Assembly: GCF_000236905.1 (NCBI RefSeq)
Contig: NC_016529.1
Span: 62,001-126,000, forward strand
DNA: 64,000 nucleotides
From: Tetrapisispora phaffii CBS 4417
Taxonomy: Eukaryota; Ascomycota; Saccharomycetes; Saccharomycetales; Saccharomycetaceae
Direction of reading: 5' to 3'
The notes below the pieces were generated by a model. That model did no database searches and was not told where the DNA came from. It saw only the letters and a program-made list of their open reading frames with translations. Shown here piece after piece: positions 18,553-36,568 of the stretch. The stretch's first letter is position 1, and each line of letters opens with the position of its first letter. Position numbers and translations under genes: made by a program.

Positions 18553-19182
18553 ATGTCATCAAGAAAGAAGAATCTGTTGAAAGTCATTGTGCTAGGTGAC
18601 TCTGGTGTAGGTAAGACTTCTTTAATGCACAGGTACGTTAATGATAAATATTCTCAACAATATAAAGCGACTATAGGAGCTGATTTCCTAACAAAAGAAG
18701 TGGTTATTGATGATGGCAGTCAGGCTGCTACAATGCAAGTATGGGACACTGCTGGTCAAGAAAGATTTCAATCACTAGGTGTTGCATTTTATAGAGGTGC
18801 TGATTGTTGTGTGTTAGTATATGATGTTACAAATCCAAAATCATTCGATAACATTAAATCATGGAGAGATGAATTTTTAATACATGCTAATGTATCTTCT
18901 CCAGAAACATTTCCATTTGTCATATTAGGTAATAAAATAGATATTGAAGATTCAAAACAAAAAATAAGTGCAAAACAAGGCCAAGAAATGGCAAAGGAAC
19001 TGGGAAACATTCCTCTATTTTTAACTAGTGCTAAAGATTCAATCAACGTTGATGTTGCATTTGAAGAAATTACAAGAGGTGCATTGCAACAGAATCAAAA
19101 TGATGCAGATGCTTTTAAGGATGATTTTAATGATGCTATAAATATTCAGTTGGACGATGAATCAAGTTCATGTGCTTGTTGA
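18553..19182 (+). CDS. YPT7: Rab7-family GTPase Ypt7
   Basis: Rab GTPase of late endosomes and the vacuole. It recruits the HOPS tether and retromer and drives vacuole fusion; Mon1-Ccz1 is its exchange factor. All GTPase motifs are intact: GDSGVGKTS (15-23), effector segment [12 protein letters not shown] (34-45), WDTAGQE (64-70), NKID (127-130), TSAK (158-161). It ends in Cys-Ala-Cys, a double geranylgeranylation signal. The frame extends upstream to a TTG, but the ATG at 18553 gives [20 protein letters not shown], the family start, and 209 residues against 208 in S. cerevisiae. It corresponds to YML001W, the gene next to CEN13. Confidence 0.98.
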
Positions 19183-19370: not shown

Positions 19371-21602
19371 TTACCTCTTGAAAGAAACATTTCTATTCTT
19401 GGCTGTTGGTCTTCTTCTCTTTGCTCCTTGTAAAGCATTCTCATTGTTATCTGCAGAGAATGGATCATACTTCCTTTTGTTCGGAGTTCTTCTTCTATTA
19501 TCTTGAGATAAAATTTTGTCACCTTTACTGTAGTCAATTACTGTATGATCTGAGTCAGCACTTCTACCACGTCCTCTATGTTGTCTATTTCTTCTGTCTT
19601 TAGTATCTTTTAAGACAATAATCTCATCTAAATCTTCCTGTTCCTCCTTATCTTCAAAAGCAGGCAAATGAGATTGTGAAATGACTTCTTCTGGCTCAGG
19701 AAATGGTTGCTTCATAGACTCTTTATGCGTATCTTGGACTTCCATGGAAAAGGCAATTTCTTCAGCTTGTTTCATTGCAGCATCTACTTCTTTTTGACGA
19801 TCACTTAGCTGTTGCTCTGTTATTAAATGCTTAGTTCCCTTGTCATATGTTATTATATCATCTCTAGAATTGAATATTTTGCTAAATACTAGAGAGTCTT
19901 TGCCCTCCTTTGATGTCACATCGTTCAAATTAGAATTGTTACTGGAATATTTTTCTAAGATATTTTCAAATTGAGAAACAATGAATTTAATTTGAGAAGT
20001 GCTTAAATCGTTTGAAGATGTTTCTTTATCCTTAGCTGTGGTGGATACTACTGTTGTAGAAATGTTATTATTTTTCATGTCCTCAAGTGTACTTTTGATT
20101 AAATTGGCAATCGCCTTTGCATTTGATCTTACTGGATCGGTCATCATTCTATTTACAGAAATGACGCCTGCTGGGTTAGTTGGTACATACTCAACTAACG
20201 AGGCAATTAATTGATTTGGCATAATATATCTTGGGGATTCATCATCTCTTCTAGCAATTGTGTCTCTCCATTCCCATAACCTTTTAACCAATTCAACTTT
20301 TTGAGAAGGTATATTATATTGGTATATCATAGAACGCCAAGGCATGTCACTTTCAGTAGGTGAAAAAACTGCAGAGCTTGGCAATGTTGGTTTGTATTTA
20401 GAATATTCAAATCTTCTTTTCGCCACTTTACGAGATTCATGCAACATGCTAGCTAGTTTATCTTCCTGAATTAACATATTTCTTAGTTGATCAAATATAT
20501 TTAATAAGAAATGCGTGTCAGCTCTTGCATAAGCATTCATTGCCTTTGAAAGAGGTCTTGTTCTCCAGTCTGCTAGTTGATATTGTTTTGAAGTTTTAAA
20601 ATGAGCAAACCTTTCCAATAGGTATGCTAAACTATGTCTTGGAAATCCAAGGGCTCTAGATGCATGATAGGTGTCAAACAAACTGACAATATACAATCCT
20701 AAATCTCTCTGTAACCAAATTATATCCATGAATGCCCCATGTAAAATTTTAGTGATTTTAGGATCAGTGAAAACTACATTCAAAACTTGCAATTTATCTC
20801 TCAAAGCAATGGTGTCAACTAAATAATCTGTGTTTCTAGTACTGATTTGCATTAAACATGTAATACCATAATAACTTCTGAAGTCATGGTGTTCTAAATC
20901 AACTGCTAATTCAGTAGCAGTTTTCAATTCATTTAACATAGCAGCTAAGCTTTCCTCATTATCTACCCAAATAGCCTCAGTCTCTTCCCACACCTTAGAT
21001 GGGATTGGATCAGAAAACTGCAATACTTGTTCGTTATATTCTTGTTTATCAATTTCTGTTTCATAAGGCTGAGGATAATGCTGAGGTGTATCTTCAGTCC
21101 CATCTACAATCTTCAATACCTCATCCAAAGGTACAACTGCATTTGGTTTGTCGGTTAATAAAGGCCTGAATGGGTGTGTCTCTGAATTATCAACTGGCAC
21201 CGAAAAATTTAATTGGGGTTTGGAAAGTCTTGTAACGTTATCTGATTCAAAATTTAATGAATCGTTTAAATATTTCATTTTTGGGTCATTAGAACTCTTC
21301 TGTGAGGCTTTTGATAAAGCATCAATTGAATGATCAGCTAGCTCAAACAAACTATCTAACAAATTTCCAATATCTTTCCATGATTCATCTAAATTTTCTT
21401 TTCCTTCTACAAGACCTTCACTATTTTCATCGACTGAAGATATTATGCTATTTATCATATCAGTAACTTTTTGAGATGTATTTGTTAGAGATGAAGCAAT
21501 TTCTTTATCTAAACTTCTATAGAAGTCAACATCTTGGGCAGCTAAAGCTGAAGCAGCCCTGACTGAGCTTACTACCAAGGGAAGTAGTTCGTCAGCATTC
21601 AT
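19371..21602 (-). CDS. RRP6: Nuclear exosome 3'-5' exonuclease Rrp6
   Basis: Nuclear exosome subunit that trims 5.8S rRNA, snoRNAs and other nuclear RNAs. An N-terminal PMC2NT domain (about 10-110) binds Rrp47. The DEDD-Y exonuclease domain has motif I AVDLEHHD (Asp235, Glu237), motif II HGAFMDIIWL (Asp293) and motif III NAYARADTH (Tyr358, Asp362), all intact. An HRDC domain follows (LVKRLWEWRDTIARRDDESP), then a basic C-terminal tail. The longer frame starts only at GTG; ATG 21602 gives MNADELLPLVVSSVRAAS and 743 residues against 733. It corresponds to YOR001W, the gene next to CEN15. Confidence 0.97.
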   Translation of the reverse strand: MNADELLPLVVSSVRAASALAAQDVDFYRSLDKEIASSLTNTSQKVTDMINSIISSVDENSEGLVEGKENLDESWKDIGNLLDSLFELADHSIDALSKASQKSSNDPKMKYLNDSLNFESDNVTRLSKPQLNFSVPVDNSETHPFRPLLTDKPNAVVPLDEVLKIVDGTEDTPQHYPQPYETEIDKQEYNEQVLQFSDPIPSKVWEETEAIWVDNEESLAAMLNELKTATELAVDLEHHDFRSYYGITCLMQISTRNTDYLVDTIALRDKLQVLNVVFTDPKITKILHGAFMDIIWLQRDLGLYIVSLFDTYHASRALGFPRHSLAYLLERFAHFKTSKQYQLADWRTRPLSKAMNAYARADTHFLLNIFDQLRNMLIQEDKLASMLHESRKVAKRRFEYSKYKPTLPSSAVFSPTESDMPWRSMIYQYNIPSQKVELVKRLWEWRDTIARRDDESPRYIMPNQLIASLVEYVPTNPAGVISVNRMMTDPVRSNAKAIANLIKSTLEDMKNNNISTTVVSTTAKDKETSSNDLSTSQIKFIVSQFENILEKYSSNNSNLNDVTSKEGKDSLVFSKIFNSRDDIITYDKGTKHLITEQQLSDRQKEVDAAMKQAEEIAFSMEVQDTHKESMKQPFPEPEEVISQSHLPAFEDKEEQEDLDEIIVLKDTKDRRNRQHRGRGRSADSDHTVIDYSKGDKILSQDNRRRTPNKRKYDPFSADNNENALQGAKRRRPTAKNRNVSFKR

Positions 21603-22024
21603 TGTATAGATTACGTCAAACACTGGTACTTTCTTGTATTCTATAGATATTTAGGCTTAAGTTGCTAATTTTTTAATCATTAATAGTTTATTCAGATATA
21701 TGCACATATCTATATTTATATATATTATATTTGAAGCTCATCACTTGAATAAATTTTTCAGTCTCGGCACCAAATTTCACTACAGGCTAAAACTTGTCCG
21801 TGAAAAAATAGCAACAAAATCAGAGATAAAGCGAATCCCTTCCTATAGAGCCTATTGTAAAAGCATAAAGGCATATCCATAGTACATAGTAAATTATAAA
21901 TATCTACTATAACAATAAGCTAACTAAAAACTAGATGAGTTTACCTTACTAGTTTCGTGCTATATATCCCCAACAAAGGCTTCTGACACTAACTCAGAGA
22001 TGTAATATTGTACAGTCTTAACAT

Positions 22025-22230
22025 ATTTTCTATGTTCGGAAACAGTAAAATTAAATTTATATTAATGTCATATTAAATTCTGAATATTTATATATTATAG
22101 CATTCTTTATTTTATGTTTTAGAATTTTTATAAGTTATATTTTTGTTTTAAATTATGTTTTGAAATTATTCTTTTAGATTTAAGTTTTTTAATATTATTA
22201 AATAATATTATGCTTATCCGAACAAAAAAT
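22025..22230. other. Candidate point centromere: AT-rich tract between two CDEIII-like motifs
   Basis: The RRP6-PHO80 gap corresponds to the CEN15 interval of S. cerevisiae, and YPT7 (next to CEN13) lies on the same side as RRP6. Within it, 22043-22214 is roughly 88% A+T by hand count, in the manner of CDEII. On its left, the minus strand reads TTTCCGAACATAGAAAAT (22042 to 22025), a close match to the CDEIII core TTTCCGAA with A-run spacing. On its right, the plus strand reads TATCCGAACAAAAAAT (22215-22230), a second, slightly weaker match. Both point outward from the tract. I find no exact CDEI (RTCACRTG) at the expected distance, so orientation and exact limits are unsettled. Confidence 0.5.
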
Positions 22231-22484
22231 GTTGTTTTGTATGAGTTATTGTTATTTGTCGCATAGAAAAACATGAAAATTTTCAAGCATAAAAGTTTGT
22301 TTTTTGGTCATCGAAGTTCATTAGGAGGCGGTAAATAAAATTTATTATTTTATTATTCCTTAGCAGGATCACAAAAGATTGAAGCTATCTAAAGTTGAAT
22401 AAGAGATAGTATTATTTAAATTATACTAATTAAATAACTTATCTATGCATTATTTGAGTTGTGATGGTTACTGTTCGAAATATT

Positions 22485-23555
22485 CTATTCATTAGAATTT
22501 AAAATATTGTATTTAGGTGCGTATTCAGGAGAATATTTGGGCACTTTTGGTAGACCATCTTCTGGTTTTGACATAACTGATTTATCAGTTTGTTGAATTT
22601 GTTCTCCCTTTGTAAGAATATTAACATGATCATCATAGTTCCTTTTCTGTGGTGTTATATGCTGAGCGTAGATTTGTATAACTTTCCTGTTGTCATCGAT
22701 ATCTGAAATATTTGTATCATTATAATTAGTTTGGATTATGTAGTTGACTTTTTTTGATTTATCAGTTGAATTCTTTAATAAACCAACTATTTGAACCATT
22801 TTTCTGTAATATATGTTTAAAACATTATATCCACTATTTGGATGGGTTAACTCCGGTTGAATATTTGCGGCTAATAAATCACCTAAATCAAGCGTGAATT
22901 GACTGCTTTTCTTTTCCAGTTTACATAATTTTATATTATCATCTCTTGGTATAATTCTGTAATTAATTCTTCGCAGGAAATCTGTTTCTAAAATATTTAA
23001 TTCACTACATCTGACACCTCCAACTTTTGCATAATGAGAATTTGTGCAAAATGAATCACTTAAACCTTTACTTGCCACAGTTGTTGCAGCCAACAGAAAT
23101 CTGTGAACTGTTAAAGAATTTATTTTAAACTCTGGGTAGACTGACGATAGTAAATCGATATAATAAAGGGACGATAAAAGTACAGAATGCTCTAGAGAAG
23201 CATATTTTGTTAGCCGTATCAAGTAATTATTAACTGAAATATTTGGTGGAACTCTTGAATGAAATCTTGTTAAATTTATCATATTGTTGTTATTTTTATT
23301 ATTTACATCTGTTTGCGTTGGGATCATTGCAGAATTGTTTTCTGTTAAAATTTCATTTCTATCGTTAATTTGAATCAAAAATGTTAACATTCTGGAAATT
23401 AGAACAACTAAATCAGAACGTGAGCATTTTAAGAACGATGTTGGTAACATTATTGTTTCTATATTCTCATCATTATTGTTATCACTATCATTATGGTTAG
23501 TATTATTACAAATATTGGGAATATTATTTGTTTTAAAGGTTAGGTGCTCAGCCAT
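22485..23555 (-). CDS. PHO80: Cyclin Pho80 of the phosphate pathway
   Basis: Pho80-type cyclin. With the kinase Pho85 it phosphorylates Pho4 when phosphate is plentiful, keeping PHO genes off. The cyclin core spans about residues 40-215: SRSDLVVLISRMLTFLIQIND, FHSRVPPNISVNNYLIRLTK, LTVHRFLLAATTVASKGLSD and KVGGVRCSELNILETDFLRR. The protein is 356 residues against about 293, with Asn/Asp-rich inserts near the N-terminus and between the first helices, plus a longer C-terminal tail. The ATG at 23555 is clear. It corresponds to YOL001W, the first gene on the other side of CEN15. Confidence 0.95.
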   Translation of the reverse strand: MAEHLTFKTNNIPNICNNTNHNDSDNNNDENIETIMLPTSFLKCSRSDLVVLISRMLTFLIQINDRNEILTENNSAMIPTQTDVNNKNNNNMINLTRFHSRVPPNISVNNYLIRLTKYASLEHSVLLSSLYYIDLLSSVYPEFKINSLTVHRFLLAATTVASKGLSDSFCTNSHYAKVGGVRCSELNILETDFLRRINYRIIPRDDNIKLCKLEKKSSQFTLDLGDLLAANIQPELTHPNSGYNVLNIYYRKMVQIVGLLKNSTDKSKKVNYIIQTNYNDTNISDIDDNRKVIQIYAQHITPQKRNYDDHVNILTKGEQIQQTDKSVMSKPEDGLPKVPKYSPEYAPKYNILNSNE

Positions 23556-34444: not shown

Positions 34445-36568
34445 TCATCTTAATTGACCTTGTTCTACTGTTACAATTGTTGATTTTTGTTTTAGACCTT
34501 CTTTAATTAATGTTATTTTATCTAGGAATTTACATTCTGGATAATCTGGTATTTCTCCACTTTTCAAAATTTCAACTAATGGATATGTTATACTTTCATG
34601 AGATGGAGATATATATGTAACAAGTTTACCACCATCAGAAATAGCAAATTTATGATGATCTTTGAAATTAAATTGGAATGTACCATCACTTAATTCAAAC
34701 ATAACAAATTGCTTATATCTTGTATATCTTCTTAAAAAGACATCATCTTTATGATATTCTTCTCTAACAAATGTAGAAACTCTACTTAGATTTGCTCTCA
34801 TATATTTAGAGAAAAAATCGATTACTTCTAAATGTCTCGTTAGCTCCCTTGGTTTATCTCCAAGTAAATAATGACTTGCTACCCAACCTTCTTTATCATC
34901 GTAACTAATGTACCAAAATTCTTCGGCGTCCGCTAATCTTAGTACTGTTGTACCATTATTAAATAGAACACCAATATCTTCTGTTGACAATTGATATGAA
35001 AAACCATGTTTATTGGAATAATCAACCCACTTTGTCACAACAATTGGGTGCTTCACTTTTGGTAATCTTGATGGCGGTAAACCACCCATTTTCTTTTGAG
35101 CTTCAGCTTCTAGTATACCATTTAATGTTAAATGGCACTCACTTGCTAAGATCCTTAATGAAATTTCTGATTTAATGATATTTGTTGATGTGGCAACGAG
35201 ATCTTTTTTAGCGACTGCTTGATGAGCTCTACGAATTCTTGCCTCACGTGCTAGATCATTTAATTTTCTTTGTGTCTCTATATCAACAATTTCTTTATAT
35301 TTATATTTCGTACCACCTGGTGATAAAGAATCTGGCAAGACATTTTTTCTTAGTTGTTGTAATTCATTGTTTTTAATTATTGAAATAGGTTGCTTGTCAC
35401 TACTTGGATTCACAGCAGCAGCGTCAGATAATAATCCTGAACTTTCTAAACACTTTTTAAAATTAACAATAGATTGTTCCATCGTTAATTGATTATCGTA
35501 ATTTGGAATATTAGTCATTACGTCTGATTCAATTTGCGGTGGAAATAAACCCCTAAACCAAACGTAATCTATGATCTCATCGACTGAAGGCCTTTCTAAT
35601 GGATCTAATGATAACAGATCTTGAATTAGAATTTTTGCTTCAGGAGAAATATATTTGTCCTTTGGAAATGTGAAATCACAACATTTTATTCTTTCATAAA
35701 TTGTGTTGACATCCTTTGATTGAAATGGTGGTTTACCTATCAACAAAGCATATAACATTACACCTATCGACCAAATATCGACTTCATAGGAATGACCTGT
35801 ATGTTTACCCATTAAAACTTCTGGAGCAATGTAGTTTGGTGTACCACACACAGTATATTTTCTTTCTCTATCATTAGCTAACACAGCGGCTAAACCGAAG
35901 TCACCAATTTTTAAATTATAATCCTTATCAAAAAAAATATTACCTAATTTCAAATCTCTATGAATAACTCTCCTGGAATGCATATATTTAATGGCACCAC
36001 AAATTTGTGTTGTGAAAAATCTTACTTCAGGTTCAGTCAAGCTTTTTCTTTTCTTCAATAGATCCATCAAGGAACCATTCGGGCAAATTTCTAAAAGTAT
36101 GTATACATTTGTATCATCTTCGAAACAATCTATGAATTGTACTATATTTACATTTTTCATACTTTTATGAATTTGAATTTCAGATAATAATTTTCTTCTT
36201 GTCTTTTCTGACTTTATGGATAATTTTGCAACAGTCTTAGCGGCAAATATCTTACCACTATCATCATTAAATTGGAAACAACGAGCGAAACCACCTTCTC
36301 CTAAGAAATGACCTCTATGGTAATCTCTTCCTCTTGTTTTAATCAAAGAAGGTGGAGTTTTACATAGTGATGATAATTTTTCTTTCTTTTTCTTATGCTG
36401 TGGTTGATTTGCTTGGATATTATTATTTCTGTCAGTGCCTGACCTCTTTACAGAAGTTCTATATTTTTCATTTTCTTTATCGAATGCATTAAATTTAATT
36501 GGAGTATGTAGATTTGAACGAGCATTTAATTGCTGATCATTAATTGACTGTAATGGAGCTAAAGACAT
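34445..36568 (-). CDS. CDC5: Polo-like kinase Cdc5
   Basis: Polo kinase, required for mitotic exit, cohesin removal, adaptation to DNA damage and meiotic steps. An unstructured N-terminus (1-82) precedes a full kinase domain: FLGEGGFARCF (88-98), Lys111 in FAAKTVAK, HRDLKLGN (203-210, catalytic Asp205), DFG (223-225), and CGTPNYIAPE (241-250). Two polo boxes occupy about the last 200 residues; PB1 begins at WVDYSNKHGFSYQLS. 707 residues against 705. It corresponds to YMR001C, the gene next to CEN13. The ATG at 36568 is clear. Confidence 0.98.
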   Translation of the reverse strand: MSLAPLQSINDQQLNARSNLHTPIKFNAFDKENEKYRTSVKRSGTDRNNNIQANQPQHKKKKEKLSSLCKTPPSLIKTRGRDYHRGHFLGEGGFARCFQFNDDSGKIFAAKTVAKLSIKSEKTRRKLLSEIQIHKSMKNVNIVQFIDCFEDDTNVYILLEICPNGSLMDLLKKRKSLTEPEVRFFTTQICGAIKYMHSRRVIHRDLKLGNIFFDKDYNLKIGDFGLAAVLANDRERKYTVCGTPNYIAPEVLMGKHTGHSYEVDIWSIGVMLYALLIGKPPFQSKDVNTIYERIKCCDFTFPKDKYISPEAKILIQDLLSLDPLERPSVDEIIDYVWFRGLFPPQIESDVMTNIPNYDNQLTMEQSIVNFKKCLESSGLLSDAAAVNPSSDKQPISIIKNNELQQLRKNVLPDSLSPGGTKYKYKEIVDIETQRKLNDLAREARIRRAHQAVAKKDLVATSTNIIKSEISLRILASECHLTLNGILEAEAQKKMGGLPPSRLPKVKHPIVVTKWVDYSNKHGFSYQLSTEDIGVLFNNGTTVLRLADAEEFWYISYDDKEGWVASHYLLGDKPRELTRHLEVIDFFSKYMRANLSRVSTFVREEYHKDDVFLRRYTRYKQFVMFELSDGTFQFNFKDHHKFAISDGGKLVTYISPSHESITYPLVEILKSGEIPDYPECKFLDKITLIKEGLKQKSTIVTVEQGQLR

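Follow-up and report, generated by a model that had tools for sequence, protein, structure and literature searches.

A very probable point centromere of Tetrapisispora phaffii with a second, weaker CDEIII-like element across its A+T-rich tract

Background

In the usual view, a point centromere has a single sequence-specific site for CBF3 and a polarity that runs from CDEI to CDEIII. The closest described systems are those of Saccharomyces cerevisiae, Kluyveromyces marxianus, and of Henningerozyma (Tetrapisispora) blattae and Vanderwaltozyma, which are taxonomic relatives of Tetrapisispora phaffii. In S. cerevisiae, RRP6 and PHO80 presumably flank CEN15, and YPT7 and CDC5 are taken here to flank CEN13. 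The Cep3 protein of this yeast binds the CCG of CDEIII, where no change can be supported (PMC6077249), and its CDEII measures 79–88 bp (PMC12226651). For the CDEII of Saccharomycetaceae point centromeres a range of 76–98% A+T is given (PMC3141009). In native S. cerevisiae kinetochores, a centromere was described as carrying a pair of CBF3 complexes, of which one sits on the CCG of CDEIII and the second on pericentromeric DNA without sequence specificity (PMC12873945, preprint). The CDEII of K. marxianus is twice as long as that of S. cerevisiae (156–165 bp), and an extra upstream element, CDE0, is treated as an A+T-rich region that is poorly conserved in this species (PMC9227491); in our own reading, CDE0 is unlike CDEIII. 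For H. blattae a CDEII of nearly 200 bp is given, and for Vanderwaltozyma one of about 75 or 85 bp (PMC12925627).

The latter source is an atlas in which centromeres were annotated in 138 species; T. phaffii may well be among them as well as in the public annotation, and the centromere analyzed here, in itself ordinary for the family, may have been predicted before. The main text of the atlas contains none of the terms Tetrapisispora, phaffii, inverted, symmetr, or palindrom (PMC12925627), and in the running text of the open-licence papers searched we found no mirrored second CDEIII site in T. phaffii.

Methods

The window, i.e., the whole stretch of 64,000 nucleotides that was analyzed, comprises bases 62001–126000 of contig C10 (NC_016529.1) of T. 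phaffii CBS 4417. The genome (12,115,070 bases) consists of 17 contigs, 16 large ones with 12,100,190 bases together (C1 to C16) and C17 with the remaining 14,880. Centromere candidates were sought by motif searches, gene-family searches, and fetches of small stretches; a CDEIII-like motif led to ten of the 13 (C10 included), neighbouring genes led to two, and the outward core led to the one on C14. The pair of cores was what drew attention to C5. A weight matrix of 27 columns was built from the 12 candidates other than that of the window and run along both strands of the window (127,948 positions). Left-out scans were also performed from −400 to +300 around the candidates, as far as sequence was available.

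Results and discussion

Two orthologues directly adjoin the candidate centromere, RRP6 on the left (19371–21602, minus strand; phmmer against PDB, E 3.4e−224) and PHO80 on the right (22485–23555, minus strand; E 1.2e−85), and the gap between them measures 882 bases. A YPT7 (Rab7) type GTPase (18553–19182, plus strand; top match YPT7, E 1.7e−100) and a CDC5-type polo kinase (34445–36568, minus strand; top match CDC5, E 2.5e−172, with kinase and polo-box domains) lie further out on opposite sides, and the phmmer searches agree with the identities that an earlier, sequence-only reading had given to all four genes. The locus therefore occupies the ancestral syntenic position and shares its RRP6 and PHO80 neighbours with the S. 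cerevisiae-type centromere, the S. cerevisiae gene order being as we take it.

Within the gap, TTTCCGAACATAGAAAAT (22025–22042, minus strand) and TATCCGAACAAAAAAT (22215–22230, plus strand), each present a single time in the window, bracket an A+T-rich tract equivalent to CDEII (22043–22214), and the tract of about 170 bp and 88% A+T with outward-facing CCGAAC-type cores at both ends that had been reported was found again, the A+T content being 88.8% across 22045–22214 and inside the range for CDEII (PMC3141009). The most A+T-rich 170-bp tract of the whole window begins at 22040 (0.894; runner-up 0.841). The words CCGAA and TTCGG occur 24 and 19 times in the window, respectively; a divergent TTCGG...CCGAA pair spaced by 120–220 bp exists solely in the RRP6–PHO80 gap, and two convergent pairs elsewhere enclose 71% and 59% A+T. 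A search of 21500–22600 against Rfam at the gathering threshold gave no match.

The left motif (22016–22042 in the 27-column model, minus strand, CCGAA core at 22035–22039) is the best site of the window with 30.8 bits, followed by the right motif (16.6 bits) and the next site (11.7 bits). The pattern TCCGAANNNANNNNATNTGTT, which was itself derived from known candidates, matches exactly at five places genome-wide (12.1 Mb), on C3, C7, C10, C11, and C12, all of them candidates, and 50 matches at up to one mismatch vs. 17 for its reversed control. Given the top left-out score and the exact match to TCCGAANNNANNNNATNTGTT, the left motif is taken as CDEIII. When all 13 candidates are aligned it has both the CCGAA core and the species-wide consensus, and since it fits the consensus of the 12 others, the situation that the sequence-only reading had considered damaging, a genome-wide consensus agreeing with neither motif, does not apply; the consensus is partly circular, because ten of the 13 candidates were found by a CDEIII-like motif. 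CDEIII is moreover a partial dyad (arm complementarity 85 of 156 vs. 47.8 expected from composition), and as complementarity stays at 81.6 when the arms are re-paired among sites, the dyad is a property of the consensus and not of single sites.

Of the 16 large contigs, 13 yielded one candidate each (C3, C4, C5, and C7 to C16), and whole-contig searches of C1, C2, and C6 by short patterns and family models yielded none. In every candidate TCCGAA follows 133 bp of 83–92% A+T, and TGTT stands at +16 in nine of them. The C7 candidate was found beside a dynamin gene, that of C8 beside a trehalase gene, and that of C16 was located by pattern (C16:106645). The C3 candidate has an APS (adenylylsulphate) kinase of the MET14 type as its neighbour, the C4 candidate has HAT1 and a protein with a Nic96 domain, and the C12 candidate has a phosphomannose isomerase; on C5, a match to dynamin lies at a distance of 1.7 kb. 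The neighbours on C3, C4, C5, and C12 are presumably of types that adjoin centromeres in S. cerevisiae. The genome also contains a Cep3 gene (E 7e−158). The proposal of a candidate point centromere is upheld by the consensus match of the left motif, the A+T-rich tract, and the flanking genes: judged from its sequence, 22016–22241 is very probably the point centromere of contig C10, and its assignment to the ancestral position of CEN13/CEN15, with a centromere function predicted from these features, is well supported.

It would read CDEII-CDEIII on the minus strand. No NNCANNTG word starts 125–175 bp upstream of the left CCGAA, as had been noted before, and the same interval is also empty of it in C4, C9, C11, and C15 (partial CDEI matches of 6 to 7 of 8 exist in C4, C9, and C11). 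RTCACRTG is matched at 6 of 8 positions four times from −230 to +40 of the window centromere, and the best of the four by the CDEI matrix, the doubtful GTCATATT (22067–22074, plus strand, 5.9 bits), stands at a distance of 151 bp from the CCGAA of the right motif; a 6/8 match arises by chance with a probability of about 0.17 per 20 positions. Across the genome, the best CDEI-like words lie 140–157 bp upstream of CCGAA in 11 of the 13 candidates (at least 7/8 in seven, a weak 6/8 in four), and at this distance C10 and C15 have no E-box. In C7, C8, C11, and C14 the best match reads RTCAC on the strand opposite CDEIII, with a tie in C9. This is presumably unlike the S. cerevisiae order; as CDEI is nearly palindromic, the opposite-strand reading may mean little.

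Compared with the S. cerevisiae type, the CCGAA-cored CDEIII, the A+T-rich CDEII, and the presence of a Cep3 gene are alike, whereas CDEI is unrecognizable in the window, TGTT stands 3' of CCG, and 11 of the 13 T. phaffii candidates have a second CDEIII-like site. Because no CDEI is recognizable upstream of CDEII, we regard the window centromere as a variant and not as a standard Saccharomycetaceae point centromere. The 140–157 bp between the best CDEI words and CCGAA also exceed what the S. cerevisiae CDEII would give (PMC12226651); a long CDEII is a feature in common with K. marxianus (PMC9227491) and H. blattae, but not with Vanderwaltozyma (PMC12925627).

The right motif (22215–22241 in the model, plus strand, facing outward) is the second of all window positions in the left-out matrix and has CCGAA; as its TGTT is at +12 and not at +16, and its score is 16.6 bits, we call it CDEIII-like only, a term already in use for Dekkera (PMC4999066). 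A score of about 16 occurs once per roughly 128,000 positions in the window, which suggests some 190 such sites genome-wide, and four non-centromeric sites among the loci fetched for likeness outscore it; the score is thus too weak for uniqueness in the genome, and it is the position of the motif that counts. Apart from CDEIII itself and the partner formed by its dyad, the left-out scans around the candidates gave sites that reach 4 bits or more solely at about −150 to −201, at or beyond CDEI on the upstream side of CDEIII. This zone held 15 matches in 2,106 positions, distributed over 11 of the 13 candidates, vs. none in 10,202 control positions (Fisher p 3e−12, a value inflated by a zone set after seeing the data and by neighbouring positions that are not independent). 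The best score downstream of CDEIII, available for ten candidates, was 0.5.

The second sites face outward in C3, C5, C9 to C12, C13, C14, and C15. The one in C7 (14.1 bits, about 200 bp upstream) faces the same way as CDEIII, and the one in C16 overlaps CDEI and is doubtful; in C4 and C8 the left-out scan found no site of at least 4 bits. An intact outward TTCGG is present at −155 to −183 in five of the 13 candidates (C5, C10, C12, C14, and C15), with a further one at −211 in C12, and the only same-direction CCGAA is at −217 in C7. Of the two possibilities raised by the sequence-only reading, the first, one CDEIII motif with a diverged CDEI, stands in that the left motif is CDEIII and CDEI is unrecognizable. 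The second, an unusual and symmetrical arrangement, is true insofar as a weaker far-end element recurs in most candidates and mostly faces outward, but the symmetry is limited, since this element falls clearly short of CDEIII in strength and its CCG is intact in only five of 11 sites.

The outward strand reaches at least 9.7 bits in seven of the 13 candidates vs. one on the same strand (shuffles: mean 0.03, never more than two of 13), and the sum of the outward scores is 105 vs. a mean of −76 (sd 15) in dinucleotide shuffles, reached in none of 2,000 and, with C10 and C14 left out, never reached either. Same-strand scores in this region are raised too (sum 53.7), an increase traced in good part to C7 and to the dyad partners in C10, C12, C13, and C14. 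When the outward scores are set directly against those of the same strand, the difference is weak (Mann-Whitney p 0.04, Wilcoxon p 0.07). The far-end pattern TTCGGAWAATGNNCAYRTG has 209 matches at up to three mismatches vs. 116 for the reversed control, and among the matches listed C12 is the only known candidate.

In our preferred reading, which we consider likely, the tract is a point centromere with its CDEIII on the left, a decayed CDEI, and a weak accessory mirror element on the right. Cep3, as part of the CBF3 complex, would bind the CCG of the left CDEIII, and the A+T-rich tract would in this way receive its Cse4 nucleosome, with CDEI probably decayed beyond recognition. The right motif would belong to the centromere design of the species, as a weaker outward element that, on most of the chromosomes studied, coincides with the position of CDEI or lies slightly beyond it. 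Considering the binding of Cep3 to CCG (PMC6077249), the two CBF3 complexes of the preprint (PMC12873945), and the Cep3 gene of T. phaffii, we read the left motif as the CBF3 site that is essential, and infer that the second element most likely offers Cep3/CBF3 an accessory contact of low affinity beyond the nucleosome, at its far side. The paired complexes of S. cerevisiae (PMC12873945) differ in that the second one occupies pericentromeric DNA, while the second motif of T. phaffii lies across the A+T-rich tract.

A serious, if less probable, alternative that stands close to the accessory contact is that a former far-end CDEIII is decaying in these second elements, left behind, for example, by centromere flips or in-place replacement and devoid of present function, so that the centromere consists of nothing but the left motif and its tract. 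The loss of CCG in six of the 11 second sites and the two candidates without such a site argue for it, as do the orientation changes of centromeres reported in several yeasts (PMC3141009) and the indication that centromeres within one genome seem to change singly (PMC12925627). On the other hand, a second site recurs within a narrow range of distances in 11 of the 13 candidates, which would require simultaneous relics at most centromeres. In addition, the second sites are no closer to their own CDEIII than to others (nine sites tested, p 0.44), which speaks against recent local copying and leaves a local inverted duplication of each CDEIII, tested in the same way, unsupported.

It is more doubtful that these are double-ended point centromeres, in which a strong and a mirrored weak CBF3 site would bracket the A+T core with one CBF3 complex on each side, the second site replacing CDEI and Cbf1 where CDEI was lost. 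In C10 and C15, both without an E-box CDEI, the outward core lies at the same distance (−183).

We regard it as unlikely that the second elements have no relation to CBF3 and instead serve a different transcription factor of the zinc-cluster type, or are intergenic words that arose by chance. Cep3-like zinc-cluster domains do occur in GAL4-like transcription factors (PMC6077249), and if C10, C14, and C5 are left out, outward CCGAA is found in only two of ten candidates (p 0.011). Set against this, the chance of CCGAA is 0.016 per stretch (estimated from A+T-matched sequence enriched in CDEIII-like words), which gives p 1.3e−6 for five of 13 candidates, p 3.2e−5 for four of 12 without C14, and p 6.5e−4 for three of 11 without C10 and C14; the match also extends beyond the core, and the empty control positions lie around the same centromeres. 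A canonical plus-strand centromere, with the right motif as the true CDEIII, GTCATATT as its CDEI at a distance that fits the best CDEI words elsewhere, and the left motif as the accessory, is very improbable given the 30.8 vs. 16.6 bits, the lack of TGTT at +16 on the right, and the ease with which such a search returns a 6/8 CDEI by chance.

A mirrored second site at most candidates would show either how the polarity of a centromere can disappear or be reversed, or a centromere that is in transition, and it bears on why the A+T core is long in some lineages and on how CDEI can be lost.

Several further loci were inspected as possible centromeres. CDEIII-like matches with low upstream A+T were rejected, and so was the match at C8:105865, which adjoins an apparent tRNA (by eye). 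On C2, a stretch near citrate synthase has CCGAA solely where the upstream A+T is 79% or less, and the flanks of the C16 citrate synthase contain no centromere candidate. The stretch C1:1009440–1010340 beside a trehalase gene has neither CCGAA nor a 130-bp tract above 82% A+T; by yeast gene order this flank is presumably an ancestral centromere position, and its centromere was possibly lost or moved. The other full-length trehalase site is that of C8, which has a candidate. The pattern TTTCCGAAC has 73 sites. The 39 inspected were on contigs for which no candidate was yet known, and the C14 site alone was in a centromere-like tract. Eight of the 39 have similar flanks by eye and appear to belong to a repeat that is dispersed in the genome and may be the end of a transposon.
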